Shown here one piece after another: positions 9,696 to 48,110 of a stretch of DNA of 64,000 bases. The stretch comes from Isoetes taiwanensis. Taxonomy: Eukaryota; Streptophyta; Lycopodiopsida; Isoetales; Isoetaceae. The DNA is taken from the NCBI GenBank assembly GCA_021234155.1, contig JAJEKV010000064.1:1860001-1924000 (forward strand), given 5' to 3'. Position 1 is the stretch's first letter. Each line of letters begins with the position of its first letter. The translations under genes and the position numbers were made by a program. Below the pieces are notes generated by a model. The model saw only the letters and a list, made by a program, of their open reading frames with translations, had not been told where the DNA came from and did no database searches.

Positions 9696-9699
9696 TTGA

Positions 9700-9780: not shown

Positions 9781-9782
9781 AA

Positions 9783-9811
9783 CACAACAAGAGAATGGAC
9801 ATTTAGCGACG
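9783..9811 (+). repeat. Left terminal inverted repeat of the CACTA element
   Basis: Begins CACAACAAGAGAATGG and ends ATTTAGCGACG. Matches the reverse complement of 48059-48087 at 26 of 29 positions; the three differences fall in the middle third. Preceded by AAA. Confidence 0.93.
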
Positions 9812-10180
9812 TGGGGTTGCGACGTGCGGGCGACGTGGCGCCGCGAAATAACGCCCCCTGCGGCGACGCCAGCGGCGCCACGCCGCAGACACGCTGCATG
9901 CGACGGGGTAGTCGACACGCCCGACACACGCCAGTGGACGCTTTGCGCCAGTGGACGGCACAGTGACAAAGTCACGCCCAGTGGATGTTTACGACGGACG
10001 CCGCATGCGACGTCGATATGTGACGATGTGTCGCATGTGTCGTGATATGTGACGATGTGTCGTGATATGACACGCCAATACGATATGTGACGTATATGAC
10101 ACGCCGGTATGTATATGTGACGATATGACACGCCAAGACGATATGTGACGTAGGTGGTCGATGTGACGATATTTTTATAC
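9803..10180. repeat. Left subterminal repeat region of the CACTA element
   Basis: Dense short motifs: GCGACG, GACACGCC, GCATGC (9896, 10003), CGTCG and TGTGACGATATGACACGCC-type phrases that recur about every 40 bp between 10020 and 10160. In En/Spm such subterminal arrays are the binding sites of the element's own TNPA protein and are required for transposition. The same role is inferred here. Confidence 0.8.
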
Positions 10181-10688
10181 ACGAAGGTTAATGGTTTTTA
10201 GGATTACAAATTCAATACCGCCCCGATTGATACCGCCCGAAAAAGACTCGACGACCAACCTGCAGCTTCATTTAAGCGTGTTGCTCGCCGCATGCATCAT
10301 CACAATAGATGCTACCGCTTATAAATTGTTCATTATAAAGCCGACGTTGTCCGTGTCAAAAATCTAGTTGTTCCAAGTTTACAATCCTTGAAGGTAACTT
10401 GACAATAGGCTTGTTGTCAATCATTGTTGCCGGAGAAGAACAGATAAAGCCTTAAAATTTGTGCAAGAACACAAGAAAAATCCCACACTTTTACCTTTTG
10501 TCCGGCCAAGCATTATAGTGTTTAATATGACTTGCGCCGCTTGTCCCGGACGCCCCGATGGTGGATTCTAGGTTTACCTCCTTCATCTAGACTCTTCGAA
10601 ACCCGAATCATGAAAAAATGGTTTTTTGGGGGCTTTGAGAGCTTTGGGGGCTTTGGATACGCCAATACGCGGGGAAGAAGGTTATGAT
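10181..10688. other. Element interior with no recognised coding sequence
   Basis: Follows the left subterminal repeats. A CATGCAT (RY-type) motif lies at 10291. Short open frames on both strands show no familiar domain. It is downstream of the B3 frame on the minus strand and may be its 3' part or 3' UTR, which the sequence does not decide. Confidence 0.4.
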
Positions 10689-11539
10689 CTAAAATCTCAT
10701 CTTTGGGTATACAAGTAATTCTAATGGCACTATGGAAGTTGAAAGATCAACGTCAAGGTTGGAATCAAGAAAGAATGCTTGAACTTGCAACTTTACCCTC
10801 GCCAAACGCCCGATGATTTTGTGATATATGATGGTGGAGGAATTTGGCGCTTCAATTGCACAAGTTCCATATGAAGCCGACCCCATTGATGAGGATTTTG
10901 AAAAGCCGATACTATGTGGCTACACCGCTGATGGCCTTGTTTCGAGATCCATACATGGAAAGTGGAATTGAACATAGCTCGGGCCGCTATGGCCGCGAAG
11001 AGTATCTAAACCGCCACCGCTACCTTGAAGTCTTCAAAGTAGAGCATGTCATGGTGCAAAGGAAAATGGGCTTCACCGAGCTTAGGGATCACAAGGCGGT
11101 TGAGCTTGCCGACATCGCCGGGGTTCTTCACGAACACCCAATACCGAAAAAATGACCTCTCTTCGCCCCTACATGCCAAAATCGATCCTTTGGTGCGCTT
11201 TTTAACGCCATGCTCGATTGTTTTCGCTTCATGACTCATGAACTTGTTCCGCTTGAGCCAAGATTTTTATGGGTTGCCGCCGATCGATTGTATGATCCGG
11301 ACAAATCCAACATACGCTAAAGAAAAATCATGCTTTTTTTTCGAGAAATCTCTTAACCGCCTTTTTAATTTCTTCATTATGGCCATTCTCGGGTTGTGGA
11401 GGTCAAGTTGCCTTCTTGGACAAGTTTGTTCATCGAAAATCAAGAGAATTGTGGAGTTGGTTGAACCAAAATATTTTAATTGGTCATCTAGCAAAATGCT
11501 TTGGAAAGAAAAATAAGTGTATTCTCTCTCAACATTCAT
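10689..11539 (-). pseudogene. B3 DNA-binding domain gene fragment carried by the transposon
   Basis: The minus frame 11006-11239 contains NPGDVGKLNRLVIPKLGEAH followed by FPL and LYFEDF. This is the opening of the B3 fold as found in the ABI3/FUS3/LEC2, VAL and RAV families (TPSDVGKLNRLVIPK..AE.HFPL in most members). Upstream in the gene sense, 11267-11539 encodes a Lys/Arg-rich stretch (MKKLKRRLRDFSKKKHDFSL) separated from it by at least one frame break. The downstream part of the fold (W.FRY..W.SSQSYVLT in typical members) is not clearly readable: frames change after about 11010, although phrases such as SGPSYVQFHF and VWISKQGHQ occur in neighbouring frames through 10689. So the N-terminal half of a B3 domain is solid and the rest is uncertain. 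Transcription would run towards the left end of the element. Capture of a host transcription-factor exon is the simplest reading. Confidence 0.65.
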
Positions 11540-13585
11540 TCTAGAACTTTCTACAACATTCGAATTTTCTAGAAGGATTCCTTAGGCTCACCCAAGATTC
11601 TCTTATATTTTTAAAACTTTTTAAAACTTTCTAGAACATTCTAGAACTTTCGTATATGTGACGATGTGACATATGTGTCGTAGAAGGTCGCGATGTTCCG
11701 TAAAGGCACCATCTTCATTGTGCCCTTAAGCCCCGAAGCACATGAACTTTTAGTGTGAGCATTTCTAATGGATTGAGCTTCATCCGTAATAATTCTAAAC
11801 CACCTAATGTTCGACAAGTGTGCCCCTTAGCCCTGGGGTCGCTTCTTTTCATCCTCTTCGATGGCTTCAGAATTCGTAACAAATGGTTCCATATGTAGTA
11901 AGCACAATGTCGTGCTTACAAAGTTCAACACAATTTATTCTTCTCCTCGATCTTCATGGTATATGTACACGATAGCTTGATGGATGGTACTACTTTTTCC
12001 TTCAATTCATGTTCCCATTGTTTTAAAGCCGATTTAGGGCAAAACAATCAAGGTGCAAACAATCGGGTTGGCAAGGAGTATAGAAAATGATGCGCGTCCA
12101 TCTTTTCGTAGAGCTTGATTCACGCTTGATAATCGAGCCATGCGCGCTACAAAAAGTTCAAATTCTAGAGGATATTATGCTAGACACTCCACCGATATTT
12201 CGTGGTGGATCTAGTTGGCTCTCAAGATAGTGTAGATTGGTTAGATAAGAAAGTCCTTGAGACTGGCATTTCATTTCGCGGCTTGTGCAACCAAGTGGGC
12301 GACTTGATTTGATAACCGATTCTCGCGTTGGATTTTTGTTTCAGCTTATTCCAAAAATCAACGCAAGGCTGTATACATTTGCCTTGCGATGGAATTGTGG
12401 AGAAAAAAAAAAGATGAAAATCAATGCATGTGGAAATTTAGATAATCAAGTATTGGGATAGTTCCCAAAGTTATGTCTTCACAAAAGGTCGGAGCAGATT
12501 TGTCAAGGCAAAGAATTTGCAGTGAATGATGTGGTTTCGCTTTGAGAGAGATATCCAAGGTAAAAATTTACATCACCGGTGGCGAAGGGATCCTTCCGGC
12601 GGTGCTTTGAAATTACGTTGTTGATGTTGATGATGCAAATGTACTTTGCGTAAAAGTTTTCGTCATTTTGGAGTCGATATTTGGTATTGAAGCAACTTAA
12701 ATTCTATCTTTTGATATAACTATAATATGGTAGTTTTGAGCTCGATTAGCTCTTGGTTGATCCGCATTTTTGAGCTCGAATTTAGCTTATGGTTGATCCG
12801 AAATTTTTGAGGCAATCGCCTTTATGTATATATAAGCATGATGTAGAATACAAAAAACGGATATATGATATGATATAGATTTCTCAAATCGCTTTTCAAA
12901 ATGGAATTTGAAGATAAAAATATGAAGAAGATGAATATGATCGATGGATATCAAGAAGATGAATGCCACGATGAATAAGGATATGACAATAATATTGCTT
13001 GTTTTAATTTATATAGGCCTATTTGTGCTATGGGTATTTTGAAAAAGCGATGAATTTAGTGATGGACATGGAGTTGGAGATGGTTGATCCGCAATTTTTT
13101 AGCTCATAATTTAGCTTCCGCTGCGGAAAAAGAAAAAAAGAAGGAATTAGAAATGACATATGGATTTACCCCCCACTTTTCTACAACGAAGATTGGGTAG
13201 TCAAAAAGTGGGACTCCCATATCCTCACCAACATCTTTAGAGAAGCAACAAAATGCAATCTGAATGAGGAACTTGGTGTCCAAAGATAGTGGGAGAACCG
13301 CTTCGGCGACTCCTTGCAAATCCAAGGCATTAATGTCCCATGTGTCAAAGCCTCGATCAAAATTTGCCTAAAAACGCCATCGCCCACCGCATCGCCACAC
13401 GACAAATGTCACGGCAAATGTCGATTGCCACCCGCGGTGGATGCGACTAATCAAGCTATGTTCAAGTGTTTTTGAGGTATGCGATTTTAGGTTGTTACAC
13501 AAAACTTGCTCGGGGATTTTAGGTTGCTCGTAATGTAAAGATAGGTATACATAAATTTCATAACCGATAAATGTCACGACAAAAT
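11540..13585. other. Element interior, probable decayed upstream part of the B3 gene
   Basis: At 11575-11655 the phrase AAAACTTTCTAGAACATTC is repeated with variations (short tandem repeat). At 12710-12810 the phrase GGTTGATCCGCAATTTTTGAGCTC recurs, and again at 13082-13115. Minus-strand frames at 13104-13325 and 13181-13405 overlap each other and look like one decayed coding stretch, but I recognise no domain. Nothing else found. Confidence 0.4.
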
Positions 13586-13589
13586 GTCA

Positions 13590-13960
13590 CGACAAATGTC
13601 GACGCGTGAGCATGCGACGTCATGTGACATTACAGAACATAAGACACGCCAGTACGTATTTGCCACGTGTACTGCTAGGTCGCATGTGCCCTGGAATTTG
13701 ACCGTTGACTATACGTCGCATGCGGCGGACGACTGAAAACCGTAGACACGCCGATGCGCATTACTTGCCACGTGTACTGCCAGTGCGTCATGTGACCTCG
13801 GATTTTTGACCGTTGACTATACGTCGTATTTTCGCGGCGTGGTCTCGAACGTATGACACGCCCGGCATGCGTTTATTGCGGTGTATACCGCCAAGTCGTA
13901 GGTGACCTGGCATGTGACCGTTGACACTACGTCGCCGGCGACGTCACGTCGCATGCGGCG
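13590..13960. repeat. Internal array of subterminal-type repeats, upstream of the transposon promoter
   Basis: Three diverged units of about 115-120 bp. Each contains GACACGCC, GCCACGTGTACTGC (or a variant), a phrase near GTCGCATGTGACCTGG, TTTGACCGTTGACTATACG and CGTCGCATGCGGCG. GCATGC occurs at 13610, 13719, 13865 and 13951. These are the same motif types as at both element ends, here placed directly before a TATA box. In En/Spm the promoter region overlaps the TNPA binding sites, so an autoregulatory role is a reasonable inference. Confidence 0.75.
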
Positions 13961-13971
13961 TTAAAGATTTC

Positions 13972-13979
13972 TATATAAA
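13972..13979 (+). promoter_or_regulatory. TATA box of the transposon's rightward gene(s)
   Basis: TATATAAA in the context TTTCTATATAAACAAC, just after the internal repeat array and followed by a pyrimidine-rich leader (CTTTTCGCCTCC) typical of plant transcription starts. It is oriented towards the SET-like and transposase regions. The start site would be expected about 30 bases downstream; this is inferred. Confidence 0.6.
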
Positions 13980-14271
13980 CAACTTTTCGCCTTCATTGTT
14001 ATTTTCTTTTCGCCTCCTTCCAAAATAAGCCTTTGGTGTTCTTCTTTTTTTACCATATCTTATACTTGTTGTTGCCTCTACATGGATCGCCATGGTCATC
14101 TAAGATGATCGGCCTTTGAGATGGCCGAGACATTGATGTTGTCTTTACCACCGGGAGGCCGGATATGCGGAACCGCCACATGTAAATTAATGATTCTTGT
14201 ATTTAGTAGCCTAGACATATATAAACTAGGAGAGGACGTGTAATACTTTTAGTAGTAAAAAAAAAGCAGTG

Positions 14272-14560
14272 TTTTGGTCAAGGACACCTGGCGCCTCCAC
14301 CTTGAGTGGAGAGGACCAGTGTGCGCCCAAACTCACCTTCATACCTTACTAAGTACAATGTAGATTACAAAATTGAGGTGTCGCCAGAGTCAAGGTCATA
14401 TGTCGACTTCACCTTGAGTGGAGGGGACTCTATGTATCCGGGGCTAAGCTGGCCTCCAAAAGATCTTTATTGAAATTGAAACTTATATAAGGGTCGTACT
14501 GGGAAAGGGCATGGTCGGCTTCACCTTGGAGTGGAGAGGACTACGGTCCGGCCCAATTAC
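14272..14560. repeat. Three ~110-bp repeats with the CACCTTGAGTGGAGAGGAC motif
   Basis: Each unit has TCAAGG or AAGGGCAT, then TCCACCTTGAGTGGAG or TTCACCTTGAGTGGAG, then GGAC and a CC-rich tail. Relatives of the same family recur at 32870-33255, on the other side of the big tandem array. Confidence 0.75.
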
Positions 14561-14573
14561 ATCCCATTTAGGA

Positions 14574-14615
14574 TTTAGGGTTTAGGGTTTAGGGTTTAGG
14601 GTTTAGGGTTTAGGG
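14574..14615 (+). repeat. Interstitial telomere-type repeat (TTTAGGG)6
   Basis: Six perfect copies of the Arabidopsis-type plant telomere heptamer, inside the transposon. Flanking sequence on both sides is element DNA, so this is not a chromosome end. It could be a telo-box-like promoter motif, a slippage product, or a captured telomeric or break-repair tract. Confidence 0.95.
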
Positions 14616-14619
14616 TTTA

Positions 14620-15103
14620 TACTACCATATATTGTATCTATCACGATCGCTCAAACTATTGTGCAAAGATATATAGTACTTACCTTTTGTAATTGGCGAG
14701 AGGGACAAAATAGTTTTACATTGTAAAAGATGTATGGGGCTGAAGAGATGACTTAGAATCGGTTGTTGAAGACCATCCATAAGATTTGGTACATTTGAAC
14801 AACCCACCGATCGATGCTCGTCATGGATATCGTTGGTATACAATTATTATTTGTTTTTTTTTTTTTAAGAGTATCTCTCCCAGTTTAAGTATATATTCAA
14901 GATGTTTATGATATCTAAATATGTAGGTAGATGATGCTGATGTCTCCTCCAAACTAGATGTGGATTTTGGTTTAATGTTGTCCATAGAGGCATATGAAAT
15001 CAAGCAAAGAACCGATTCATCAATAATGTGGATGGGTGCCGCCAACGCCGAAGTGTTCCCCTGCGTGAAAGAACACGGCGGGCTACAATCATGAGAACAT
15101 TGC
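14620..15103. other. Element interior between telomeric tract and SET-like frame
   Basis: No domain recognised. Contains a 12-base poly(T) run near 14856. May be 5' leader or intron of the SET-like gene. The rightward frame leading into 15104 is open in places, but no start codon is clearly favoured. Confidence 0.4.
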
Positions 15104-15747
15104 ATGTGTCGCGACATTTCCCAAGAACGCTTGGCCTCACTGCCCGAGCGTGAAATTCCTGAAGAATTGCAAAGATTAGTCCGACCCTTTGTTAGGCACC
15201 GCAAGACATTTGGCTTGTGGCCAGTAGACTTACCTATCCCTATGGATCAAGAATTTGCTTATTGGGGAAGAAGATACATCATTATGCGGAGCCGCATTTG
15301 TCCAGAAGCTGGATTCGGCCTTATCTCCGGCACGCGTATAGAAGTGGAGCGAGATACCCACATTCCATTAATGCCATATGCAGGTCCCGAGTACGATTGG
15401 AAAACTTGGCAAACTTTGACTAAATATGCTTGGCGTATGAGGATTTATGGAATGAATTCCAATGCCGCTACGATAGTCTGTGGGGGCATGTGATGAGGAG
15501 TTGAAGTTTATTGATGGTCGGCCGTGGTTCATGGCAATATTGCGGGGTTCATCAACGTTCTATTGACAACCGTGAGCCGATGCAATTGTGAATTTTAGAG
15601 TGTCAAGGAGGGGAGGAAGATTTTTTTACAAGATCCATCAAAAAGCGATATATCATGGTGTGTGCTATTAAAAGCATAAACATTGGAGATGAGTTATTCA
15701 TCAACTATCGCTATGATAGACCTCTCCCATTTGAGATGGAACAATAG
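15104..15747 (+). pseudogene. SET-domain (protein lysine methyltransferase-like) gene carried by the transposon
   Basis: SET proteins transfer methyl groups from S-adenosylmethionine to lysines, often on histones. The frame 15104-15493 gives ELQRLVRPFVRHRKTFGLWP, then GFGLISGTRIEVERDTHIPL, which fits the GxG opening of a SET domain. After frame changes come FIDGRPWFMAILRGSS, AGFINV with NCEF (the N..NC.E region that binds cofactor) and finally GDELFINYRYDRPLPFEMEQ and a stop at 15745-15747. GDELFINY matches the GEEL..DY C-terminal SET motif with its catalytic Tyr. The order and spacing (about 150 residues) fit one SET domain read through roughly two or three frame breaks, which may be decay or consensus error. 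It lies 1.1 kb downstream of the TATA box and immediately before the transposase, in the same direction. It could be a separate gene or an N-terminal extension of the transposase transcript. Family identification is by motif only. Confidence 0.62.
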
Positions 15748-15959
15748 TATTGTTGTACTAAAAAAAAGGAATAAAGAGGTTTTTTTTTTTTTTTAATATG
15801 TTTTTTGTCATTCGTGAGTCTATACAAATGGTTGTATGTATTTTATACTTATTACATTATTTGACATGATGGTTAATACGTTACTCTGCTTTAATGAACT
15901 CATTCGAGCGGTCTCCATCCCGATCCATTAGTTCTAAGTTACTGAGCAAAGGAAACCTA

Positions 15960-17860
15960 TCGCCGCGGAATTTCAAGCCGTGAGCGCACCAATATGAAGA
16001 TATTGCATACGATCAATATGAAGAGGATGAAACTATTGACGAACCCGAAACGGTCTTTCGCGGACGGAGCCGATGCTCGATATGTTGCACGCTCTTCAAG
16101 AATTACCCGATATTGATTTAGATGATGTCGAGGATGGTGGTGGAGAGGATATGGTAGAAGATGTGGGATACCCTTCGAGGATTGGTCGCATCGACGATGA
16201 CCCTATTGTTATCGGGCGAAACGCAAAGCTATTTCCTCGCGCCTCAACCTCTCGCTTTTCACAAGGCTCGCTAATTCTCAATCTCCAAACCAAGTTCAAG
16301 GGAGCAATGCAAGTGTCTCTGCTCTATTGAGGTGACATACTTATCAAGTCTTTCTATCTTACCACCATCTCCATCTTTTATCTTACCACTCTTAGATGCG
16401 CAGGTTATTGCACGAGAAGATCCTTCCAGAGAAGAACAATATGCCTACCGACGCATCTCAAGTTAAGAAAATGATTCAAGCTTAATCGCCTTGGTTATAA
16501 AGTCATACATGCATGTCCAAATGATTGTATGATCTTCTATCCCCGCCGAGCATGAGAAGTCCACTCATTGTCTCGTATGTAATGAACCCGAGATACGTGA
16601 ATGACCTAAAGGGAAAACGGTACCTCAGAAGGTTATTCGACACTTTCCAATAATCCCAAGGTATATGCATCACCACTTCTTACAAATAGTTGTAAATTCA
16701 CTTATTTTCGGTACTTATATGTTGCCTATAATTTATTCTATAGGTTAAAGTTGATGTTCCGCTGTAAGACATTGGCTAGCCTAATGGATTCTCACGGCTA
16801 CACATGCATCTAGTGATGATGTGATGCGAGTCCCGAGGCGACAAGCAGTAAAATTTGGAAGCATGTCGATGCGACATGGCCTCGACTTTGAAAAAAGAAC
16901 CACGTAACGTGCGCTTGGGCCCGGCCACCGATGGCGTAAACCCATATGGTACACAATCGACCGCATGGTCTACATGGCCGCTGATGATAGTGAACTACAA
17001 CATACCCCCATGGTTGTTGATGAAGAGTGGGCACATTATGATGACTTTATTGATACCGGGAAGAAAAACCAAGTAATTTAGATGTGTACCTAAGAATAAT
17101 TGTGGATGAGTTACTCCCTTTGTGGAACATGTATTCAGTGTCTACGATGCCCATAAAAATGACGCTTTTAATCTTAGAGGTATACTATTGTGGACTATGC
17201 ATGACTTTCCGGTTTGCCGAAAGTGTTCTCGGTTTAAGACATCGGGCACTTCCCTTGCATGATATGTGGGGAAAAGTTGCAGCACCGCCACTCTAAGCAT
17301 CCAAGAAAGTAGTATACGAGGGTTTTAGGAAGTATTTGCAGCCACGCACCCCTTCGTAAAAGCAAATACAGTATTACCCAGCTGGGCAATCGTGACTATA
17401 CGTAACCACCAAGCTGCAATTACCATACGAGAATGGGGTGAGCGCTGAGATAAGAAGGAAGAGGGGAAAATCCGCAAGGGAAATCCGTGGGGGGGCACTC
17501 CAATGAGGAGGTCGAGCTTTGGTAGACAAAGGAGGATGAGGAATTATACAAAGGGTGGCGCAGGAAGCCGCGGAGGAGGAAAGTCTTTATCGCCAATATG
17601 AAAAGGAAGTCCGCTTTTATAGACTACCATATTGGACCGACCTATTGATTCAACACCTTTTAGACCCGATGCATATCTTCAAGAACGGGGAAACTCTTTT
17701 ATGGAAGCATGTATTTGGTCAAAAAGACACAACAAATGCCGGGATGGACCTTAAGGTAAGTAATACAAAGAAAGAGGCATGGATCCGAGGTGAAGGGCAA
17801 ACACTTCCTCCGCAAAATGGGTTATTGCTAGGTCCACCATCGAGCTATTTATGATGATTT
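15960..17860 (+). pseudogene. En/Spm-type transposase, N-terminal and TNP2 (transposase_21) region
   Basis: This is the catalytic DDE-type transposase region of plant CACTA elements. An acidic N-terminal stretch at 16073-16330 is followed by MPTDASQVKKMIQ and, after a small gap, YKVIHACPNDCM (16400-16530). A clean 83-bp intron (16661-16743, GT/AG) leads to LKLMFRCKTLASLMDSHG. The 16855-17076 frame holds the hallmark VRLGPATDGVNPYG and VNYNIPPWLLMKSGHIMM with LLIPGR. Next come DVYLRIIVDELLPLWN and, with a frame change, LRHRALPLHDMWG. The 17555-17854 frame holds LPYWTDLLIQHLLDPMHIFK, corresponding to the LPYW..L..RHNLDVMHIEKN signature of the family. Three or more frame breaks are seen between these blocks. 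It continues directly into DUF4218. Confidence 0.9.
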
Positions 17861-18580
17861 AAGGGCCCTTAGAACACCAACCGGTTACATGCAATCATTG
17901 CGAACCGCATTCACAAGTAGTGGGAGCCGACCGTTTAAAGTCCCATGATCGCATAAGTTCTTGCATGTAAGCAATTGAAGTCCACATATATATGCACTAC
18001 TATAAAATGTAACCCATAACTTATATTTGGTGTTTGGATCATGCAGCTTCATGCCCCCGACCTTTAGGGGAGTTTTAGACAAGGGACCATTGAGGCAATA
18101 AGTGCCCTATCAAAGGTCATAAGGTTGTTACCCATGTTGATTTAGTGGTCCCCGCCTATTATTTTATTTGTGGCTAAGTTTTTGTTTTGGACCTCATAGG
18201 TGGATGTGTAAAAAACTATACCGAAAGACGAAATTGAAGAGATGAAAGTGAAAATGGCAGAGGCATGTTGCTTGTTGGAGAAGGAGTTTCCACGAGCTTT
18301 TTTGATAAATAACCCATCTTTTGGTACATCTTATTGAGGAAGTGGAGCTCAAGGGAACTGTATATGCCGATGGATGTTTTTCTTGGAAAGGTTTATGAAG
18401 GTATTGAAGGATATGGTGCGCCAAAGAGCACGCCCCCAAGGTAGTATGGCGAGGGATGGCTTAAGAAAAGAGTCACTTTTCTATATGATGTATATATTTC
18501 CGCCAGACATCCGTGATGCACCTCGCTATGGAGTGATGAAGGGGACGAAGATTGTGGGGTAGTGGCGTAAGGCAATGGTA
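17861..18580 (+). pseudogene. Transposase gene, DUF4218 region
   Basis: DUF4218 normally follows TNP2 in plant CACTA transposases; its biochemical role is unknown. Blocks visible in order are RTPTGYMQSLRTAFTSS, then SHD...KFLH, GVLDKGP, LIEEVELKGTVYADGCF, and in the 18374-18562 frame ERFMKVLKDMVRQRARPQG followed by SMARDGLRKESLFY. The last block matches ERYMK.LK..VRNRARPEGSI of the family closely. An AG/GT-bounded interruption around 17945-18045 may be an intron. Frames change several times. Confidence 0.85.
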
Positions 18581-18639
18581 TGCGTAAGTCATTTCACCGA
18601 TATGATCATTATAGTTAATCAATTTCTTCTTTACAATTC

Positions 18640-19640
18640 GCACCAATGGCAAAATGGATTGCCGCCGCTATGAGAATGCAAAGGAAGAAATGGAAGAGAA
18701 GAGGCATGAATGGAGACGACATAATAGACGCGAGCCCCAGACTCGATGGATATGAACCCTTGCCGGACAAGATGGAAAGAGAATGGGTACTACAGGCTTT
18801 GACCGATGCATATCACAAGGGGAGTATATTACGCCTACTTTATGGGCATACGCGACAAGGTGTCATGAAAAGGTAGTTGCAACAAATTATGTTGATGTCT
18901 AAATCGAGTATTTTCTTTTGATGTTATTGTATCTATTGACATTAATGGTGCTTTTGACAAGATATATCTTACTCCCTCGATATGGTGGCATGGGACCCAC
19001 TATCGTGTGAGTTCTCTTGACATACACAGAAGACTTGTGGATCATGAGTCATGGCATCATTCACGATGGAGTTTCAATCAAGTGTTGCCGATCGTGAATC
19101 GCCGTGAAGCCACCCGTGATTGGGCCGGAGGTTAAAGACTATAATGGAGGTGGATGTTGGTGGCAATTTTAAGACCTTCATATTCGGCGTCGATTGGTTT
19201 GACCTTCAATTAAGGGGCCAGGCCTACAAAGTAGTATGATAGAACAAGTGGCTTTTTCACGGCCAACTCTAGCAAGATGTACCCCGGTAGTGAGACGCTT
19301 GTCCTTCCGCATAACCGTGAAATGACACACATACACATATCCACTTCAAAATTTAGACCATCAATATCAATCTCACGCCCAACTTCTTTGACCAGATTTT
19401 TTTTCTTTACCGATCGACAAGACCCAACATGGTGGTTTATCATACAAACTACATTTAGGGACGGACCAATATTCCAAGGTGTTGTGCTAGAGGAGTCAAT
19501 AACGCCCCAAGAGCCCTCCGGCGCATCAAGGCATTCAAACTCACCGAAAACGAGCATCAAGAGGTTGACCACCAAATTTCATGCAAAGATCTTACACCGT
19601 AGCAATTCCACGAAATACGATGTACTTCGTGCATTTTAAT
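18640..19640 (+). pseudogene. Transposase gene, DUF4216 region and C-terminus
   Basis: DUF4216 is the usual C-terminal module of plant CACTA transposases. An open frame at 18646-18876 (WIAAAMRMQRKKWKRRG, then EREWVLQALTDAYHKGS) leads in. After a probable intron near 18880-18960, TFIFGVDWFDLQLRG at about 19180 fits the VVLF..DW.D block. In the 19277-19639 frame, FFFTDRQDPTWWFIIQT fits the VFY..D..DP.W.VV..T block. The frame ends at 19637-19639. Several frame breaks. Confidence 0.7.
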
Positions 19641-20274
19641 ACAAATGTTGGTAATGCTAACAATGATGACTCCTAGTTAGCACCTAGAGGAGACGATCAT
19701 TAAATTTATATGTCAAAATATTATGCACATCCTCGCAATCCTTCCGATAGGCTATGTCTATTGGTCTTCGTGGTGCAATAAAACCCATTCAATTCAATTC
19801 TTTTTTTTTCCCCCCCCCCCCTTTTGGTATACATTATATCTGGAGGAATAAAGAACGGCTGAACATGGGCTCAAAGAAGCCACATAGGCTCAAGCATTGC
19901 CTCTAGACTAGAACATGCAAAGAGTCTTCAATGGTATCTTAGTTACTTCCGATTTTCTAACCTTAAACCAAAGCCACCACCAAGTTAACCTCGATCATTG
20001 CTTAATTTGATGCTATCCACTAGCTTTCGTTGTGGATCACCGCTCTACCTTTCAAACAGATAATAATAATGGTATTTTGTAGGGTGAACAAGTCCAAATA
20101 CATAGAGGAAGCATGAGGAGCCTACAGACGCTGAACGCAGTAGGCGCTTGCATTTCCCTTAGGGTCGAACATGCTACCTAGGTTCAAACAAGCCTCTTTA
20201 GGCTCAAGCATTGTCTAGGCTCAAACATGCCCCAAGATCAAACATGTACACAACAAAAATAAAAATAGTTTAAA
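19641..20274. other. Element interior with short TAGGCTCAA-type repeats
   Basis: No coding sequence recognised. A poly(T)-poly(C) run lies at 19801-19822. The phrase GGCTCAAGCATTG or TAGGCTCAAACATGCC recurs at about 19868, 19889, 20200 and 20215. This is the junction to the tandem array. Confidence 0.5.
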
Positions 20275-20275
20275 C

Positions 20276-20293
20276 GACGCCGCTATAACAAAT
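20276..20293 (+). repeat. GACGCCGCTATAACAAA, left border motif of the tandem array
   Basis: The same phrase (ACGCCGCTATAACAAA) returns in the same orientation at 31688-31704, just after the array. It therefore brackets the whole 11.4-kb array as a short direct repeat. Confidence 0.8.
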
Positions 20294-32745: not shown

Positions 32746-32869
32746 TTGTTACTTCAAGGTAAAATTTCTATTACGATTTTGGACCCGGACAAAAATCTTG
32801 TACACGGCCCTATTTTGGTAAGTAGTTGATCGACTTGCATTTTATTTTTTATAGTTTTAAGTAGGTTAA

Positions 32870-33780: not shown

Positions 33781-33787
33781 TGATTAT

Positions 33788-38873: not shown

Positions 38874-39219
38874 ACTGCAATCTGAGCCAAATTGAGGATG
38901 CTACTTAAGTATAAAAGTGCCACTTATGAGCCCCTATCTTTGAGGCATACATTGGGGCGATGGGCTAATTCGTGGCGAAGTGCAAAGGTTCGACTTAACG
39001 AAAGATCACAAGATGGCGAGAGAGTCTCAATGATGAGCGGTGAAGGAGTTAGATAGTCTTATCCATGGTGGGAGCTCTATTGGTGCGGGGGGCTAGATTA
39101 TCATTACATGCTCATGATAAATGTCTTTGCATTTATTGACAACATTCACGTGGATCTTTGTTGGAGTTGTAAAAGTGCATTGGTAGTAAACAAAGGCGCG
39201 GATATACCAAATCCGGATC

Positions 39220-39522
39220 TTGGGAACCACGTACTTTAATCAAGATGATTATTATATCGGCATTGTGTGGAGAGGCCAAGATAGAGCTGCATCATGGTTG
39301 TTGGTCGACAAGTATATCCGTTTCAAGAGCCCAAGTCCGGCATTGGCCACACCCCTTGGACTTGCCCCCGAGGTCTTTTGTGGAGATGAGCCCCACGAAG
39401 CACAATTTCATTATATATGGACTTTCCCTAAGTCCATATGCCTCGAAAATGAACCCAAATTTTTAGAATATAGGAGTTTTTTTATTAGAATGATGCAAAA
39501 TTTAGGAATCGATGCGGGGTAG
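39220..39522 (+). pseudogene. Cargo gene fragment (unknown domain), copy 2
   Basis: One open frame of 100 codons with VWRGQDRAASWLLVDKYIRF, then LATPLGLAPEVFCGDEPHE and QFHYIWTFPKSICLENEPKF. It is the cleaner duplicate of 34444-34710. The protein has a globular, conserved look (Trp, Tyr, Cys, Pro rich), but I cannot name the family. Confidence 0.4.
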
Positions 39523-40019
39523 ATGAGATGGCAGGCGTTGTTTCTATTCAAAGCTTCCGTGCTCTCCATGAATTCTTGGAAGCTCAGTGACTTATTTTCC
39601 TCCTCTTCTACCTCATGTGGAGCCGACTTCTCGATTTGTCAAGACTCTCATAGCCCTTGATTACGCACAACAATAAAAGTTCGGTTAGAACAAAGATTAT
39701 GTCCCAAAGGGCCAAAGCTGGGCATGGCAAAAGTTTTTCCCCAAAGGGCCAAACAAGCTATAGCCCAATTTGCCCTAGATGGTGTTGCCTTGCACCTTTG
39801 GGCGACCAAGAGCCAAATTTGGAGCCCATTTGTAAGAATATTATGTTTAATTATTATGTTTATTAAAGTCCTCTGAACAAGCTTTCTAACAAACTAAAGA
39901 ACATAGAAAATGGAATCCAAATGCAAAAGTTATGCCAAAAGTTCTATTCTGCCACCCTGGAACCCCTTAAATGGTTCCGGGGTGGCATAATAGATTTGTT
40001 TGGCATGACGTTTGCATCC

Positions 40020-41045
40020 GGACTCCGTTTGCGACGTCCTTTAGCTTCGTTGAAAAACTTGTTGAGAGCTTTGATAAAAATATCTAATCGGGCATAATGT
40101 TTATACAAATAGTCCCCAAATTTGGCTCAAATTTGGAAGCCCAATTTAAGGGCTTCTGGGGTGGCAGAATAGATTTTTTGGCTTGCATCCAGAGTCCGAT
40201 TTTGGCATTTTTTATCTCGTTGGAAAGCTTCTTCAAAGAGCTTTGATGGAGGCACTAATGAAGCATACTATTTAGAGAAATAGGCTCGTAAATTTGACTC
40301 AAATTGGCGGGCGCCCAATTTAAGGGGTTCTGGGGTGGCAGTATAGATTTTTTTGCATAACTTTTGCATCCAGACTCCGATTTTTGCATTTTTTATTTCT
40401 TTGGAAAGCTTCTTCAGAGGGCTTTGATAGAGGCACTAATGAAGCATACTATCTATAGAAATAGGCTCGTAAATTTAACTCAAATTGGGCGGGCGCCCAA
40501 TTTAAAGGGGTTCAGGGTGGCGAGAATAAATTTTTGGCATAACTTTTGCATCGGACTCCGATTTTGGCATTTTTTATTTCGTTGGAAAGCTTCTTCAGAG
40601 GGCTTTGATAGAGCACTAATGAAGCATACTATTTATAGAGATGGGCTCGTAAATTGGGCTCAAATTGGGCGGGCGCCCAATTTAAGGGGTTAGGGGTGGC
40701 CGAGAATAGCTTTTTGGCATAACTTTTGCATCCAGACTCCGATTTTGGCATTTTTTATCTCGTTGGAAAGCTTGTTCAGAGGGCTTCGATAGAGCACTAA
40801 TGAAGCATACTATTTGTAGAGATGGGCTCGTAAATTGGGCTAAAAATGGGCGGGCGCCCAATTTAAAGGGTTAGGGGTGGCGAGAATAGCTTTTTTGGCA
40901 TAACTTTTGCATCCAGACTCCGATTTTGGCATTTTTTATCTCGTTGGAAAGCTTGTTCAGAGGGCTTTGATAGAGCACTAATGAAGCATACTATTTATAG
41001 AGATGGGCTCGTAAATTGGGCTTAAATTGGGCGGGCGCCCAATTT
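40020..41045. repeat. ~180-bp minisatellite in duplication copy 2
   Basis: GCGGGCGCCCAATTT recurs at about 40307, 40490, 40672, 40852 and 41031, a spacing of 179-183 bp. Each unit carries CATCCAGACTCCGATTTTGG, TCTCGTTGGAAAGCTT and AATGAAGCATACTATTTATA. The period is close to nucleosome repeat length. Confidence 0.95.
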
Positions 41046-41940
41046 GAGGGGGCTCAAGGGTGGTATAGTGTAGGTTTCTCGACATAACTTTTGGTTTTGG
41101 ACTCTGTTTTAGGCGTGCATTAGCTCGTTGGAATGCTTGTTATGAGTGCTTGGAGGGGCTCTATGTTAGCAAGTGTTCTTTGCTGGTGGGCAACATGCAT
41201 GTCCAATAGCAAGATAAGAGAAAAGCAAGGACATGTATCCCCACCAAAAGCAAGAAAAGGAAGGATCATCCATGTCAAAAAGTAGGGGAACAACATTTGA
41301 TGTGCGTATATAAAGCATGTAAGGAGGACAAAACTATATAAAAAGAACTAAAAGCAATAAAAAATGAAATGCACTAACCTTTCACGGTCTTGGACATGCA
41401 AAAATGCTTCAAAAAGTCTTCTAAAAGATGGGCACCTTCCTGGACGAGCACACCCAATGGAGGAGGAAGAAAACAACCACCTTGCAGCTCTAAAATGATG
41501 TCCTAATATTTGAAAAGCATGGATAAAGGTTGCATGGAGGATGCACGTGGCATCATAAAAGGAAAGATCATGGGGATATTTGGTGGGCCCATAATGCATC
41601 ACAAAATAAACCCCCTTTTTTATGACTATTTAAAATTTAAAATAAAGTTGCCACGTGTGTGGTTATTGAAATTCAAAATTCAAATTTGAATTTCCCCCCC
41701 TCGACTTAATATTGCCAAAAGCTCTTACTACCCATTCTATGTTCTCGACATCTTGCCATCCATCTTTGGCGCTCTTGACTAGCCGTTTTGCCACCACAAG
41801 GTAGATTTTGTCTTTTTTATTCGCACATAGCATATATTAGTGTAATGCACTACTACTTTTGTAGTTTTTTTTTTGAAGTTGTAATCTTATTGCTATTCTA
41901 GAGTAGTTTTTATTGTAATTTAAATGTTTGATCGTGTGTT

Positions 41941-41942
<2 letters not shown>

Positions 41943-41989
<47 letters not shown>
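41943..41989 (+). repeat. (TC)n microsatellite, about 23 copies
   Basis: Uninterrupted TC dinucleotides. The homologous place in duplication copy 1 (about 37100-37150) has only short, interrupted TC runs, so the tract expanded or contracted after the duplication. Confidence 0.98.
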
Positions 41990-41991
<2 letters not shown>

Positions 41992-43424
41992 GCTAAGAGT
42001 TGCATTATGCATTGCGACACTCATGATGAGATGATGAGACACATCTTAGGCTTCAAGAAGAGGTTCGAGCTTTTATCTGAAATCACATAGCTAGTTGTGG
42101 TAGGATTTGAATTAAGGATGTGCAGGCACAGCATGCTGAAGACCAAATCTCGTGCAACGAAATGGGATGCGCCCAATTTTATGCACATATAAGGCCGAAT
42201 CTTATGCCTTTGAAATAGGCAGGGGCGGCCAATTTGGAGAGCCCAAATAAAGGCTCAATTTTGTAGGCCCAAATTGGGAAGCCCAATTTAATGGCAAAAA
42301 AAAAAAAAAAAAAAAAAAATTTTTTTTTTAGCCCATAAATTGGGCGGGGCCTTAATTTGATTAATTAATTGGTTGTCTATCAATTTGGGCTCATTAATGT
42401 GAGTCATTTTTTCTCTCTCCTTTTTTTTAAAGACATTTTCACCAAGTTTTGATATGATTTTCATGTGTATTATGCTTGAAATGAGCCGTAATTTGTAATG
42501 ATATATCTTTCATCGTGTGTGACCGGTTTCTAGGATTGAAGATCCATAACAGAAGGGTTCGACATTCAAAGGTGGACGCCCGGTTTGCCAAAGGGTTTTT
42601 GTTGCCCATGGAGGGTGCAGATACTCTAGGGGAGCCTAAAGACTCTGGAACCATGATGTTGTGCATCAGATTGACATTGAGCCAGCACCTTCGAACTCTA
42701 AAGAAAGGTAGGTGGAAGATGTAATGGGGCAACACCATTAACTAGGTATACCTTGAATAATTAGAATGTGACATCTGGCAGGCATGGCATCACAATATCT
42801 TCGGGAATAGTCTCGTATTTTCTTACAGACCGGGATGTTACAGTCTCTGATCAAAAATAATGAAATTGTGCTTTTTTGGACTATTTCATTATATATGGAC
42901 TACTACAATGACAAAGCTATATGTGCCATCCAAGACTTGAGCTACTGGACTTTTTAACAAGAAGGCAATTTCATCGAAGTTGGCACTATCTATTGTCTGT
43001 ATACCGGCGGTCTCACTGTAAGAACATGAATGTCCATTTGACGAGCCATCCGTGAAGTTCTTCTTCGTGAGATTTTCTCTCTTGCAACCGGACGATTCAT
43101 TTGTACAAAAGCAGAAATAGGTATGTGATTTCATATATTTTACATATTTCAATAACATGTGCACATCTTTGATGATGATGAGAGGTTATTTGGGCACATT
43201 GGGCCTCTAGTTTTTGAGTTTGAGTGACCAGTCATGTACCACCAAAGCGTCAAGCCATCACCGCGAGAAGCATTGGTCCGTGAAAAGATAAACCTATGCC
43301 CAGGTGATGTCATGTGTCTAACGTGGGAGATGGAAGCCAATGACTGCTAGTGACTGCATAGAGATAGAGACTATCGACTATGCTTGGGAACCGTCAAACA
43401 AGAAGAAGATACCCGATACTATCA

Positions 43425-44265
43425 CGATACACGTGCAGCTGTGAAGGCATATGCAGTACTCGCAGGGGATGTCAATTAGTGTATGAAAAAGAGTCATTCA
43501 TGCAAGTGCATTAAAAAATGGTCCATAAATTCAGGTATTGTCCAAAATTAATGAAATTGTGCTTACAGGGACCAATGGTAGTCCTGCCATTCATGAATGG
43601 AGGAACCTTTGCAGAATTACTTGACCATCTTCCGAGCCAATTCTCTTCTTATAGGAGATGGTCAAATGCAATGCATAGTGCTCCAAGAAGGGCTGATATG
43701 AAGATAAGTGCGGAGTGGAAAGCCAAAATGAGACTCGTGTATAAGTACGTCCCAGAAATAGCTCTCGCTCTTGCAGAAGGAGTCTATGCCATCCACGCTC
43801 CAGGTTGGACACACACAAAGCTCAATTGCAAAAGGGTCAAACTCCATTTTGATGACTCCCTTACAAATGTGTGGGTGGCTATTGGTGATTGGGACACGGC
43901 CCTCCGTTTTTTTTGCAAGGAGCGAATGCCCAAATTGAAGAGCCATTATACACTACAAGATGGAACGGTGCGATATCCTTGGTGGGAGAAGAGAGTTTTT
44001 ACATCATCATCAGATGACCAAGCATCATGGGGGCATGAGATATCTGACATATATTCCCTGGGCTACATTTACGAGATGCTCCTTGATTTTGTCGGGGTTG
44101 TGTGTTGAGATAAACCCAACCGACCGATACTCTAGCACATTGGACATCATCCAACATATGAAGGTTCAAATGATGATGGATAGAGAGCTGGTGCACATGG
44201 ATCGCCCATCTATTGCTCGCGTCATCGATGTGTTCAAAACAAAGCAGGGCTTTCTTCTGATATAG
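43425..44265 (+). pseudogene. Protein-kinase-like gene carried by the transposon
   Basis: N-lobe pieces AAVKAYAVLAGDV (VAVK-type lysine strand), VYEKESFMQVH and CPKLMKLC lead to MVVLPFMNGGTFAELLDHLP, a hinge-like segment. The open frame 43518-44108 continues with EIALALAEGVYAIHAPGWTH, TKLNCKRVKLHFDD where HRDLKP.NILL is expected, IGDWDTALR where DFG is expected, and DIYSLGYIYEMLL (helix F region). A frame break near 44100 leads to EINPTDRYSSTLDIIQHMK, the usual C-lobe end. The catalytic-loop Asp of HRD is not present (H-T-K-L-N), so if translated this would be a pseudokinase. The N-lobe also exists in duplication copy 1, which stops just before the C-lobe. I cannot assign a kinase family. Confidence 0.62.
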
Positions 44266-44499
44266 TTGTGAGAGAGAGACGACATATGAAGTGTGGTGAT
44301 CCACTTGAGATGGCTAAGCTACTGTTAAATGCTTGCAAGAAGTGATTAATATAATTTTGTCTTCCTATTTGAGGCTTGTTGCAACAAATAAATGTTTTTT
44401 ATTCAAAATTACTAATGAAAAAAGTAATTTATTAATCAAAAAAATTATTATTAATGGTAAATAAATTATTAATCATAACTTGTAGATAAAGTGTCGCTC

Positions 44500-44800
44500 A
44501 AGCATAGGCGTCAAACCCTAGGTTTTGTGTGCTACATCATCAAACCCTAGATTGTAAATGCCATGTGGCACAATCTAGGGTTTGATGATGTGGCACACGC
44601 AAGCTAGGGTTTGATGACATGGCACTTACTATGATGTGGCAATAGGAAGTCGCGACGTGACACAACCTAGGGTTTGATGATGTGCCACCGCAAGCGAGGG
44701 GGTTTCATGATGTGGCACTAAAAATGCCACGATGGGATAATTTAGGGTTGATTGTATGACATGATACATGGCCTGATAATATGGCAACCTAGAGTTCGAT
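44500..44800. repeat. Short tandem repeats CTAGGGTTTGATGATGTGGCAC
   Basis: Five or six diverged units of about 45-60 bp, all with the core CTAGGGTTTGATGA followed by TGTGGCAC or a variant. Part of the unit (AAACCCTAGATTG and CAATCTAGGGTTTGATG at 44549-44590) forms an inverted pair. No function known. Confidence 0.8.
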
Positions 44801-45243
44801 ATGCACCCCATACATATATACGAGATACTTTTCTAATATAAATAAGAAGATAAGAATATAAATTTAGGTATTTATTCAAAGACACTTGTTCAAAGCTTTT
44901 CTCTCGCTAATTCTCGTTATGTTCAAATTAATATATATAGTCATGGCGGAGGCTCAATTCTTAGCGGTTTTCCTCATTGTGGCCCTCTTTTCGCTGATGC
45001 AATATTCATGGCATTATCGTCTCCCCTCAAAGCCCGGTCAAGGCGGTCAAGAAGGCTGATAAGTCTGTAGGGGCTCATTAGTGGCACATTTGAACCATAA
45101 AAATACTTTTTTTCATCTCTATGGTTTGTAAGTATCATTCTATTATTGCAACCAATATCATTCATGGTTATCAAATGTTTCTCTCACAATTTCTTTTGAT
45201 CTAGGTGTGCTCTTTTTTCGGGCGATGAATAGAGGTAATCGCA
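44801..45243. other. Element interior upstream of the second transposon gene
   Basis: AT-rich with TATATATA phrases (44815, 44930) that could serve as promoter elements for the gene starting at 45244. No coding sequence recognised. Confidence 0.4.
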
Positions 45244-47377
45244 ATGTCGATCACGGAGAATGAGCAAGGCGAAGGTAAGTATTTATATAGTTTTTATTAT
45301 CGCTTTACCCTCTAATTAGGTATGTGAGTTTATGCATGGAGTTTTAATTTGTTGTGTAGAGGAAAGGGACGAGTTTAGAGAAAATAGGAGGAGGACTCCA
45401 CGAGGTAGGGGCAATCGTGGTCGATGTTCCTCCAAGGCGCCAACCTCCACCTATCACTACACCGGCCAGGTTTGGGTATTAAGATAGCTTTTTATAAAAA
45501 TAATAAATAAATGAATTGTTTTTTGCATGATATTTGTGCTTTCCTGCAGCTCCTCCTCCCGCTCGCCTTCCTCATAAAACATGTCTCCGAGAGAGAGACC
45601 AAATTGTAGCATATTTTGCCTCTTTGACACCAACGCCCGGTTAAGTGACCTCCCGCTCCTATTCCCCAACGACATAGTGTTGATTATCGGCCTCCACGTT
45701 CTCGCGAGAATATTGAGAATGCTAGGCGTAGTATGGACTCCGTTCTAGGCAAGAGGCGGGAACAGATTTTTCTAATGCAAGGAACTTGGAGGAAGATTTC
45801 AACGGGTAAATATATATCCACCACGTACCAAACATTTCTTTGGTTGCGGCATGTTAAAGATGCTCATTCTCTCATTACTTCCAGGTCAAGAAGTAGTGGA
45901 GCAACAGACTCACAACGTTCAAGATCGCGGACGATCATCACGGGGTTGGGATCCAGAAGAACATGGTCGCCTTCGCTGACTTGGAGAGGGAAGGATCCCG
46001 ACGACGCCCACGTGTCATTGAAGAAGAGCGTCCATTTCGCTTTGTTTTAGACACGTAAGTTCTGGGTGATTTGGCCCCGAATATACCCGACTATCATATT
46101 AATAATAATTTTTGATGTAAGTTATGTGAACATATTATTTAAGATATCAACCTTAAATATTAGTACTTTGTCATCTGAATTTGTTGTTTTGTTCATTCTC
46201 TTCACTTAGAATACATTGTAAAGTGCTCAAAAGGTTCTTAATCGGGGCCGGGATATGTATATTGACGGTAGACATAAAACACGCTTTTATATACCCACCA
46301 TTTATGCTTCAGGGGACGCTCTTCCTAAGAAGGATGATGAGGGAAGTGTCTTTTATACTACACCGAGGGACGCGGTCACAAATAATATCTCGTTTATGGC
46401 CTCCCCAGCGGTATAGGGGAGTGGCACGGCGCTTATGACCAACGCGAAATAGAGAGCGTCAAAAATAAAATGAAACGAGTTTCCCGGAGATAGAAAAAGC
46501 AAAGGCGTTTAAGCGGAAGAAGCTCACTTCGATGATGGGCGAGCTTATACGAAAAAGGAGGTACATGACCTAGTCATAGTCTTGTTTTTATTATTTTGAT
46601 ATGGCGTTGATCTATCGATTTATGTCAAAGGCACCATGTGGTCAAGGGCCGGAAGCGGACTTTGCGAAAAAGAAGGAGGCGATTGGTCAAAAGTCCCTAA
46701 ACCACTTAATCTCCACAAGGAAGATATCAAGGTATTTCTTATTTTTTGTCATTCGTTCACTTTAACTTGTGATAATGTTGTGTGCCGTTGCAATCAGATT
46801 GCATTGAGCGTGCAAAGGATCGAAAGCAAACATAGAGCTTCGGACCCGACAAAGCAACTAAAAGTGACCGAAAAGGCGTCTCATTTGGGCTCCGTGGTCG
46901 AAAAGGGTTTCTCTATAGATTCAGTAAGAGCTATATTAGTTCACATTAATTTTAATAAGAACTTTAAATGTCACTAGCTAATACTCGTTATATTGTCATA
47001 GGAACATCTATACGGGTTTGCCCCTAACAAGCAAAGACGCATTACAAGTAGCCACGGGCGTGGATTTTGTTTATCTGTATCAGCGGTTATAACGACGAGG
47101 GGAACTCTCCCACTTGGCGGGAATGCGGGGGGTGCGTTGTAGAAAATTATTATAATTCTATGAACTACATTAACGCCATATTCTTTTGGTTTTATAGGAA
47201 GCGATGGCGGATATGAATGAAGGTCTAGAGCATGACATGGGACATGCTCGGGGCGGCGAGGATCTGCAGCAAACGTCATTTGGAGAGCCATCCAATCGCA
47301 ACCGTGCGGCTGACGGTTTGAGGCGTCCTCTAACTACGTACTCGGATGACTACTCCACTGAATCTGAGAGAGAGTAG
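45244..47377 (+). pseudogene. Second transposon gene, possibly TNPA-like DNA-binding protein
   Basis: A spliced start is convincing. ATG at 45244 opens MSITENEQGE with a donor GTAAGT at 45275. The next exon begins at 45360 and encodes ERDEFRENRRRTPRGRGNRG, and the next starts APPPARLPHKT. Later pieces include WSRAGSGLCEKEGGDWSKVP (46640-46700), VQRIESKHRASDPTKQLKV (about 46810-46868), and a last exon from 47198 encoding EAMADMNEGLEHDMGHARGG and ending TESERE with a stop at 47375-47377. An Arg/Gly-rich, basic start followed by a central region and an acidic tail fits the second gene of En/Spm elements, whose product binds the subterminal repeats. Position next to the right subterminal array also fits. 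Sequence similarity to TNPA is not clear to me, and some middle exons cannot be read in frame. Confidence 0.42.
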
Positions 47378-47419
47378 CTCTAGGCTAAAAGGGTGGATAC
47401 TCCTCTTAACGAGTCTTTT

Positions 47420-47576
47420 GTGATTATTAAAAAAATATAAATACAATTCACTTTTGTGATTATTTAAAAATATAAATATAAAATAATTTTGTGACTATTT
47501 AAAAATATGAATATTTTTATATAAATATAAATATATTTTTTATATAAATATTTTTTTTTTTTTTTTTTTTTTCCCC
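47420..47576. repeat. AAAATATAAATA-type AT-rich repeat and poly(T)
   Basis: The phrase TTTTGTGATTATTTAAAAATATAAATA occurs about three times, then a ~23-base poly(T) near 47549. It lies between the second gene and the right subterminal array. Confidence 0.8.
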
Positions 47577-48070
47577 TACACGTCGCATGCGACGTATCCA
47601 CGCGGCTTTTTTTTTGCCACGTGGATTTTCTATACTGCCGGATTTTCATTATTTTCCCGTGTATATTCCACGTGTCACGCCGCATGCGGCGTATACCGCG
47701 CGGGCTTTTACGCGTGTATATTCCATGTATTTTCCCGTGTATATTCCACGTGTATATTGCATCGCGTTCCGTTTCGTGTCACGTCGCATGCGGCGATATA
47801 CGCGGCTTTTTACCAAGACGCGTGGATTTTGGTGATGTTCCACGTGTATATTCCACGTGTATATTCCACGTGTATATTTCACGTGTCACGTGCCATGCGA
47901 CGTCTGCGCGACGATGCGTGTCACGTCTGGCTAGCGACGCCCGCTGACGCCGCCAACGCCGTGAGATGCGTCGCGTCGCGGCGTGTGTGCGCGACGTCCC
48001 CGAGCGACGTCGGCGGCTGCCGTCGGGCGTCGCGGGGCAGCAGCGACGTCGCTATTGGCGTCGCTAAATG
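47577..48070. repeat. Right subterminal repeat region of the CACTA element
   Basis: Repeated units combine GTCGCATGCGACG or GCCGCATGCGGCG (GCATGC at 47585, 47682, 47786), a CACGCGGCTTTTT phrase, and GTGTATATTCCACGTG, the latter at least five times. CACGTG is a G-box core. The outermost 150 bp (47900-48060) is almost pure GCGACGTC-type sequence. Same motif classes as at the left end. Confidence 0.85.
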
Positions 48071-48087
48071 ACCCTTTTCTTGTTGTG
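48059..48087 (-). repeat. Right terminal inverted repeat of the CACTA element
   Basis: On the minus strand begins CACAACAAGAAAAGGG and ends ATTTAGCGACG. Followed on the plus strand by AAA (48088-48090), identical to the bases before the left repeat. Confidence 0.93.
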
Positions 48088-48110
48088 AAATGGAGGTGAA
48101 GGCATACTTT

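Follow-up and report, generated by a model that had tools for sequence, protein, structure and literature searches.

A probable 38.3-kb CACTA-type transposon with an internal orphan subterminal array in Isoetes taiwanensis

The DNA analysed here is a stretch of 64,000 nucleotides of the Isoetes taiwanensis genome (assembly GCA_021234155.1, contig JAJEKV010000064.1, positions 1,860,001 to 1,924,000, forward strand), which is called the window in the following. It carries an element of 38,305 bp (positions 9,783-48,087) that interrupts a minisatellite. The element is bounded by terminal inverted repeats (TIRs) and contains a subterminal array at each end, a further array of this type in its interior, pieces of a transposase region, a satellite and a large tandem duplication (Table 1).

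The inverted similarity of the two ends stops at base 29. By a base-composition model, TIR pairs this good are expected 0.0012 times in the window, and no other TIR-like site in the window exceeded 20/29 to either end. End look-alikes lie at 8,477 (19/29) and 34,892 (20/29). The fourth flank base is unequal on the two sides, and therefore the target-site duplication is exactly 3 bp. The right flank, AAATGGAGGTGAAGGCA, resembles the minisatellite unit of the left flank, AAATGGAGGCAGAGGCA. This match alone is modest, being equalled by 120 of 8,418 control 25-mers. When the flanks are joined through one AAA, the resulting site GCAAATGGAGGTGAAGGCA can be compared with the minisatellite unit GCAAATGGAGGCAGAGGCA, and of 8,418 control joins, 15 did equally well. 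Ends inverted at 26 of 29 positions, an identical AAA on both sides and a minisatellite resuming beyond the far end had been claimed in a preliminary description of this DNA, and all three were reproduced.

The subterminal arrays at both ends carry the palindrome CGYCGCATGCGRCG. Allowing at most two mismatches, it has 11 matches in the window, where 0.19 are expected, i.e., three at the left end, three in the internal array (13.7-13.96 kb), one at 31.7 kb and four at the right end. It was absent at this stringency from both flanks within the window. The arrays, which the preliminary description had also listed, are rich in CpG. The observed/expected (o/e) ratio is 1.67 at the left end (9783-10190), 1.74 in the internal array (13,560-13,970) and 1.92 at the right end (47,560-48,087), compared with 0.49 and 0.44 in the flanks. 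A scan of 300-bp windows for an o/e of at least 1.4 and at least 15 CpG picked only the two ends of the element and the stretches at 13.35-14.1, 15.8-16.25 and 31.65-31.95 kb. The right and left ends have 74 7-mers in common, counted with repeats, and 612 background windows average 16.1. The best non-end windows in this comparison fall at 13.5-13.8 kb, the region of the internal array. In En/Spm elements, the subterminal repeats are described as cis-signals bound by the element's own TNPA protein (PMC2613891).

The internal array is a third array of subterminal type, and it is absent from the preliminary description. It has an identical 18-base word in common with the right end, and the motif GACACGCCARTACG in common with the left. 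With at most two mismatches, this motif occurs six times, i.e., three times in the left array, once at 10,656 and twice in the internal array. The array is followed directly by a TATA-like box, which may act as a promoter, and the transposase region starts about 3 kb downstream on the + strand. The left array and the internal array are separated by a filler whose self-similarity is short and weak (11,452-11,516 vs 13,075-13,138, E = 4.4e-4). Past the internal array lies a block of repeats with a GAGTGGAGAGGAC core, and a related block lies some 1.1 kb past the 31.7-kb trace of subterminal type. The two blocks are 62.6% identical over 334 columns (E = 4.4e-13). Judged by these features, the element resembles 5' modules lined up in the same direction, with only one 3' end. 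Just past the first block, at 14567-14619, there are 7.6 copies of TTTAGGG, the plant telomere-type repeat. This array, the tnp2 transposon and the kinds of genes in the window point to plant DNA.

The open reading frames (ORFs) of at least 50 aa that were scanned with Pfam numbered 66 of 91 in 9,783-20,200 and 77 of 143 in 31,000-48,087. All Pfam scans of the element, including those for reverse transcriptase, refer to these two regions on either side of the satellite. Transposase_21 was found on the + strand at 16,882-17,067 (62 profile positions, E = 4.2e-24) and DUF4218 on the same strand at 18,353-18,490 (E = 3.9e-8), both above the Pfam gathering score. A further 20 Transposase_21 positions lie downstream in another frame, below the cut-off (E = 0.038), and a reading of the three-frame translation gives more frame changes at 17.1-17.3 kb. 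The transposase that the preliminary description placed inside the element is present, and its frame is broken. Its sequence as it stands does not resemble that of a functional gene. Among the element ORFs scanned, there was no Transposase_24 and no TNPA-like family. A search of IMG/VR with the transposase gave 14 pattern stretches, of which none was confirmed, and one with the tip pattern gave none. No match was obtained with Rfam at gathering scores or in a scan for tRNA genes.

The CACTA (En/Spm) superfamily is recognized by short TIRs starting with 5'-CAC. Both TIRs of the present element start with CACAACAAGA and so begin with 5'-CAC. Compared with the plant CACTA consensus, CACTACAAGAAAA, the right end has 1 mismatch in 13 positions and the left end has 2. 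A 3-bp target-site duplication is a further mark of CACTA elements (PMC8978399). Of the marks of the superfamily, the element has this 3-bp duplication, a tnp2-type transposase and subterminal arrays at both ends. Further marks are a catalytic DDD/E triad and a second, TNPA-like protein; of the transposase there are pieces, and the ORFs scanned gave no TNPA-like family. A nested cluster of long terminal repeat (LTR) retrotransposons was also considered and rejected. By self-comparison (E 1e-5, pieces of at least 120 bp, 76 rows) no LTR-like pair was found beside the satellite or the duplication, and no reverse-transcriptase family was found in the ORFs scanned.

The satellite extends over about 11.3 kb, close to the 11.4 kb first described. 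Six whole monomers have a mean pairwise identity of 0.837. The satellite is regarded as non-coding, since codon phases are unbiased and, of the 247 gaps between these monomers, 216 have lengths not divisible by three. Exact 16-bp direct repeats, ACGCCGCTATAACAAA, flank it at 20,277-20,292 and 31,688-31,703. Two ACGCCGCTATAACAAA-like words at no more than three mismatches were also contained in 7 of 100 shuffles of the window. The weight of these repeats lies in their position and exactness, as if the array had grown or inserted between them. Next to the satellite, a stretch at 20,249 resembles a tip. It was weighed as the end of a second element and rejected. On the far side, by eye, it has no inverted partner, only the direct repeats. 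Shortly past the satellite, at 31950-32750, there is a near-pure pyrimidine tract (GC skew -0.56 and AT skew -0.58 over 32,001-33,000). The 4.8-kb duplication was likewise found as first described.

The differences between the repeats are unevenly distributed. The two 4.8-kb copies differ in clusters, with 425 mismatch patches where 811 +/- 20 are expected, 88 patches of at least four columns where 7 are expected, and identical runs of up to 72 bp. Their differences comprise 377 transitions and 340 transversions, and CG is found in 49% of merged patches, compared with 25% of random stretches. Among adjacent satellite pairs (22509-30300), the patches were below expectation in all five tested. 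Three internal 181-bp minisatellite pairs were less clear, with 12, 11 and 17 patches for 17, 18 and 20 expected. Seven small repeat pairs of the flanks were slightly patchy (mean 1.35 vs 1.15 expected, on just 35 differences). This clustering could reflect mutations that arose in clusters, decay of CpG combined with effects of the alignment, or errors of the consensus in methylated repeats. Because the differences are clustered, dating from repeat identity was rejected, and the frame changes are unsafe too.

Three stretches of the element have weak similarity to genes. Set A1 of the ORFs (57) gave 7 families at E <=0.5, and set A2 (76) gave 14. Among these 133 ORFs, about 0.1 chance matches are expected at the level of the SUV3_C match and about 0.8 at the level of the SNF2 match, and therefore the SNF2 match alone is not significant. 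A PDB search of the SNF2-like motif gave RAD5 (E = 0.15) and another SNF2 protein (0.43). The top match of set A2 was SAYSvFN (E = 0.0025). For the 197-aa frame, the PDB matches were eIF2-alpha kinase 1 (E = 0.16) and then Cas3 helicase (0.54), no kinase family was found in Pfam, and the predicted structure has a mean predicted local distance difference test score (pLDDT) of 35.9. Phage_Coat_A, the sole Pfam match of this frame, was below the cut-off (E = 0.015) and was taken as chance. These SUV3_C-, SNF2- and kinase-like fragments may be leads to captured genes, and they are not proof of them. The preliminary description had reported three foreign-looking gene fragments and a gene carrier. 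Similar stretches do exist, but all are below threshold, and what remains of the gene carrier is these weak matches. A hairpin at 44511-44614, with 45-nt arms 91% complementary and a 14-nt loop, could be a small foldback element.

Table 1. Features of the element and of its insertion site (positions in the window)
Feature	Position	Strand	Remarks
Host minisatellite, GAGGCAAATGGAGGCAGA type, split by the insertion	9640-9782		Left border approximate, by eye
Target-site duplication AAA, left copy	9780-9782		Flank comparison
Left TIR, CACAACAAGAGAATGGACATTTAGCGACG, 29 bp	9783-9811	+	26/29 vs right end
Left subterminal array, 29-bp period	9812-10190	+	CpG-rich; palindrome CGYCGCATGCGRCG x3 (two with mismatches); GACACGCC motifs
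Filler, left array to internal array, 3.4 kb	10191-13559		Isolated left-array motifs at 10,656 and 11,654
SNF2/RAD5-like fragment, weak	11,644-11,826	-	Pfam SNF2 E = 0.0059, 16.2 bits, cut-off 24.9
SUV3_C-like fragment, weak	about 13,452-13,556	-	Pfam E = 9.3e-4, 19.4 bits, cut-off 27
Internal subterminal-type array, 108-bp period	13560-13965	+	CGYCGCATGCGRCG common with both ends, GACACGCCARTACG with left end
TATA-like box, TATATAAA, directly after internal array	13972-13979	+	By eye
112-113-bp repeat, three copies, GAGTGGAGAGGAC core	14243-14561	+	Homologous to 32,851-33,161
tnp2-type transposase region, pieces in different frames	16852-18559	+	Transposase_21 and DUF4218
Satellite, unit about 1.11 kb, G+C about 55%	20295-31609 (right border about)		Higher-order repeat 7.8 kb apart
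Weak subterminal-type trace	31650-31830	+	CGYCGCATGCGRCG with 2 mismatches at 31,717; one CpG-rich window at 31,651
Second GAGTGGAGAGGAC repeat block, unit about 107 bp	32851-33161	+	Homologous to 14,243-14,561
4.8-kb tandem duplication, first copy	34112-38876	+	Head to tail, about 84% identical
4.8-kb tandem duplication, second copy	38876-43735	+	Head to tail, about 84% identical
Stop-free frame, 197 aa, kinase-like by motif order, weak	43515-44105	+	Best PDB match eIF2-alpha kinase 1
Right subterminal array, period about 104 bp	47561-48058	+	Palindrome CGYCGCATGCGRCG x4 (one with mismatches)
Right TIR, 29 bp, inverse of CACAACAAGAAAAGGGTCATTTAGCGACG	48059-48087	-	26/29 vs left end
Target-site duplication AAA, right copy	48088-48090		Flank comparison

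Because of the paired ends, the AAA duplication, the restored site, the common subterminal arrays and the tnp2 pieces, the 38,305 bp are very probably a single CACTA-type (En/Spm-like) DNA transposon, inserted once as a unit into the minisatellite. The unit would have been mobilized in its entirety, by cut and paste, through a transposase acting on both ends. Some points weigh against this. The claim of a single insertion is drawn entirely from the sequence. Both tips read CACAA and not the exact five letters CACTA, and the element is therefore named CACTA-type, not strict CACTA; of the one CACTA transposon with both ends that was first described, the single unit was retained and the plain name CACTA was not. 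The top background window holds 78 7-mers of the left end, compared with the 74 of the right end. In local alignment the arrays are borderline, since the left-right score was reached by 9 of 200 shuffles on the + strand and by 2 of 200 on the - strand, the left-internal score by 6 and 1, and the internal-right score by 0 and 3. If the two ends were unrelated and belonged to separate insertions, the 38 kb between them would never have moved as a unit. The ends align inverted over just 29 bp and the interior composition is heterogeneous, as such a history would predict, but the matching 3-bp duplication, the restored minisatellite, the lack of another end in the window and the palindrome CGYCGCATGCGRCG common to the ends make it very improbable. 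A misassembly, or heavy consensus error in the repeats, that distorts the structure is improbable as well, to a lesser degree. The clustered differences in the 4.8-kb copies and in all five satellite pairs, together with the patches that hold CG, speak for such an artefact. However, the paired ends, the duplicated target site and the restored site all lie outside the repeats, and clustered mutation or CpG decay could account for part of the pattern. The clustering is also less clear in the minisatellite pairs and slight in the flanks, so that the contrast with the flanks is thin.

How the element grew is a separate step and less certain than its movement as a single unit, with which both of the following versions are compatible. 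The favoured version, which is plausible though short of probable, is that at least two related neighbouring elements merged after complementary end deletions and trapped the DNA between them, i.e., the Pack-CACTA transduplication model, described in a review (PMC13317346). The left end of one element (9,783-10,190) would have been joined across foreign DNA to the remainder of a related neighbour (13,560 onward), which had lost its own terminal repeat and kept its inner 5' array and promoter. The composite would also have acquired the satellite and the tandem duplication. An orphan end sequence inside an element is the mark of a fused composite, and the internal array without a TIR is such a sequence. 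The arrangement expected of a fusion, i.e., an outer TIR pair, an inner orphan array and other sequence between, was seen, and 31.7-33.2 kb may hold a second orphan module. On the other side, next to the internal array there was no TIR-like 29-mer and no remnant of a TIR, the gene matches are weak and do not support the filler as host genic DNA, and there is just one transposase region in the ORFs scanned. The 31.7-kb trace is itself weak, as 2 to 52 of 200 shuffles scored at least as high as its alignments to the two ends. An insertion dividing one subterminal region would give a similar picture, and a single CACTA-type element whose 5' subterminal region was divided when the filler, the satellite and the duplication were inserted later, without any fusion, is possible and almost as plausible. 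The internal array has motifs in common with both ends and precedes the TATA-like box and the transposase like the 5' control region of one element, and the gain of a satellite within a CACTA element has been documented (PMC8978399). Against such a division, 31.7-33.2 kb again holds a GAGTGGAGAGGAC block and a subterminal-type motif, both oriented as before, and the periods are unlike (108 bp in the internal array vs 29 bp in the left array). A more speculative and rather doubtful extension of the fusion is that at least three related elements, all oriented alike, fused as the ends facing each other were repeatedly lost, and that the outermost ends still moved the whole 38 kb as one transposon. 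Each fusion would have left an orphan subterminal array (13.6 kb, perhaps 31.7 kb) marking a trapped segment.

Of the genes identified, those closest to the element are a molybdopterin-domain gene on its left, presumably CNX1-like, and a VPS39-like gene on its right. Among 15 flank ORFs scanned with Pfam, MoCF_biosynth was found in two (best 2.9e-14, ORF 433-858), Vps39_1 in one (1.8e-16) and CNH in two (best 3.1e-7). The VPS39-like frames lie by eye on the - strand at about 54.9-59.2 kb. The right flank also contains a frame like the endonuclease of long interspersed nuclear elements, placed by eye at 62023-63202 (Exo_endo_phos, E = 0.0043, in one of the 15 flank ORFs). Just right of the insertion, at 48245-48590, there is a second pyrimidine-rich stretch with C-rich minisatellites.

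The element was compared with published ones. CACTA elements of wheat are reported to reach 30 kb, and the range given jointly for large Gypsy, Copia and CACTA elements is roughly 2 to over 30 kb (PMC4290129, PMC5738225). En/Spm families of 16-20 kb have been published for a red alga. The element had been called giant, with usual plant elements given as up to about 20 kb. At 38.3 kb it is indeed extreme, but published elements reach 30 kb or more. Those of the Triticeae are likewise very large and rich in tandem repeats, and some of wheat are described with gene capture (PMC4290129, PMC5738225); the likeness is one of size and repeats, up to 30 kb vs 38.3 kb here. The soybean element Tgmt* is similar in its short imperfect TIRs, 3-bp duplication, tnp2 domain and asymmetric, palindrome-forming subterminal arrays (4 repeats left, 24 right), but differs in its size of 20.5 kb, its 13-bp CACTA TIRs and its transcribed gene, and the passages compared mention neither an internal array nor a satellite (PMC2613891). 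A CACTA-like element of Chenopodium quinoa was also enlarged by a satellite DNA array downstream of the coding part, and the same study describes gene fragments in other elements (PMC8978399). It measures 16,523 bp, of which 5,550 bp are an array of 171-bp monomers, compared with 38.3 kb and about 11.3 kb of 1.11-kb monomers here.

Literature searches pairing CACTA with CACAACAAG, and on phrases for large CACTA elements, gave no match. The present element is far larger than the Pack elements. A model of Pack-CACTA fusion in Arabidopsis has reportedly been put forward by Catoni et al. in 2019. In the hybrids of Arabidopsis Pack-CACTA elements, as summarized in a review, neighbours fuse after complementary end deletions and trap chromosomal DNA, which resembles the present case; Pack elements are non-autonomous, whereas the present element retains transposase sequence (PMC13317346).

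The element is therefore very large and known in kind, as a satellite-bearing CACTA element has already been published; it is extreme, not new in kind. With 38.3 kb it is larger than the 30 kb given for CACTA elements of wheat, though it does not certainly surpass the open upper limit of "over 30 kb". What is new here is the orphan internal array at 13,560-13,965, with the weaker trace at 31.65-31.8 kb, and this array is the interesting part. If the whole 38.3 kb already existed when the element moved, and moved together, then a satellite and a large duplication were carried along by a single pair of 29-bp ends and the adjoining arrays. Alternatively, the satellite and the duplication may have grown after the insertion, which is indistinguishable here from carriage at the present size. 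The orphan internal array would allow the fusion model of sequence capture to be tested at a single locus.

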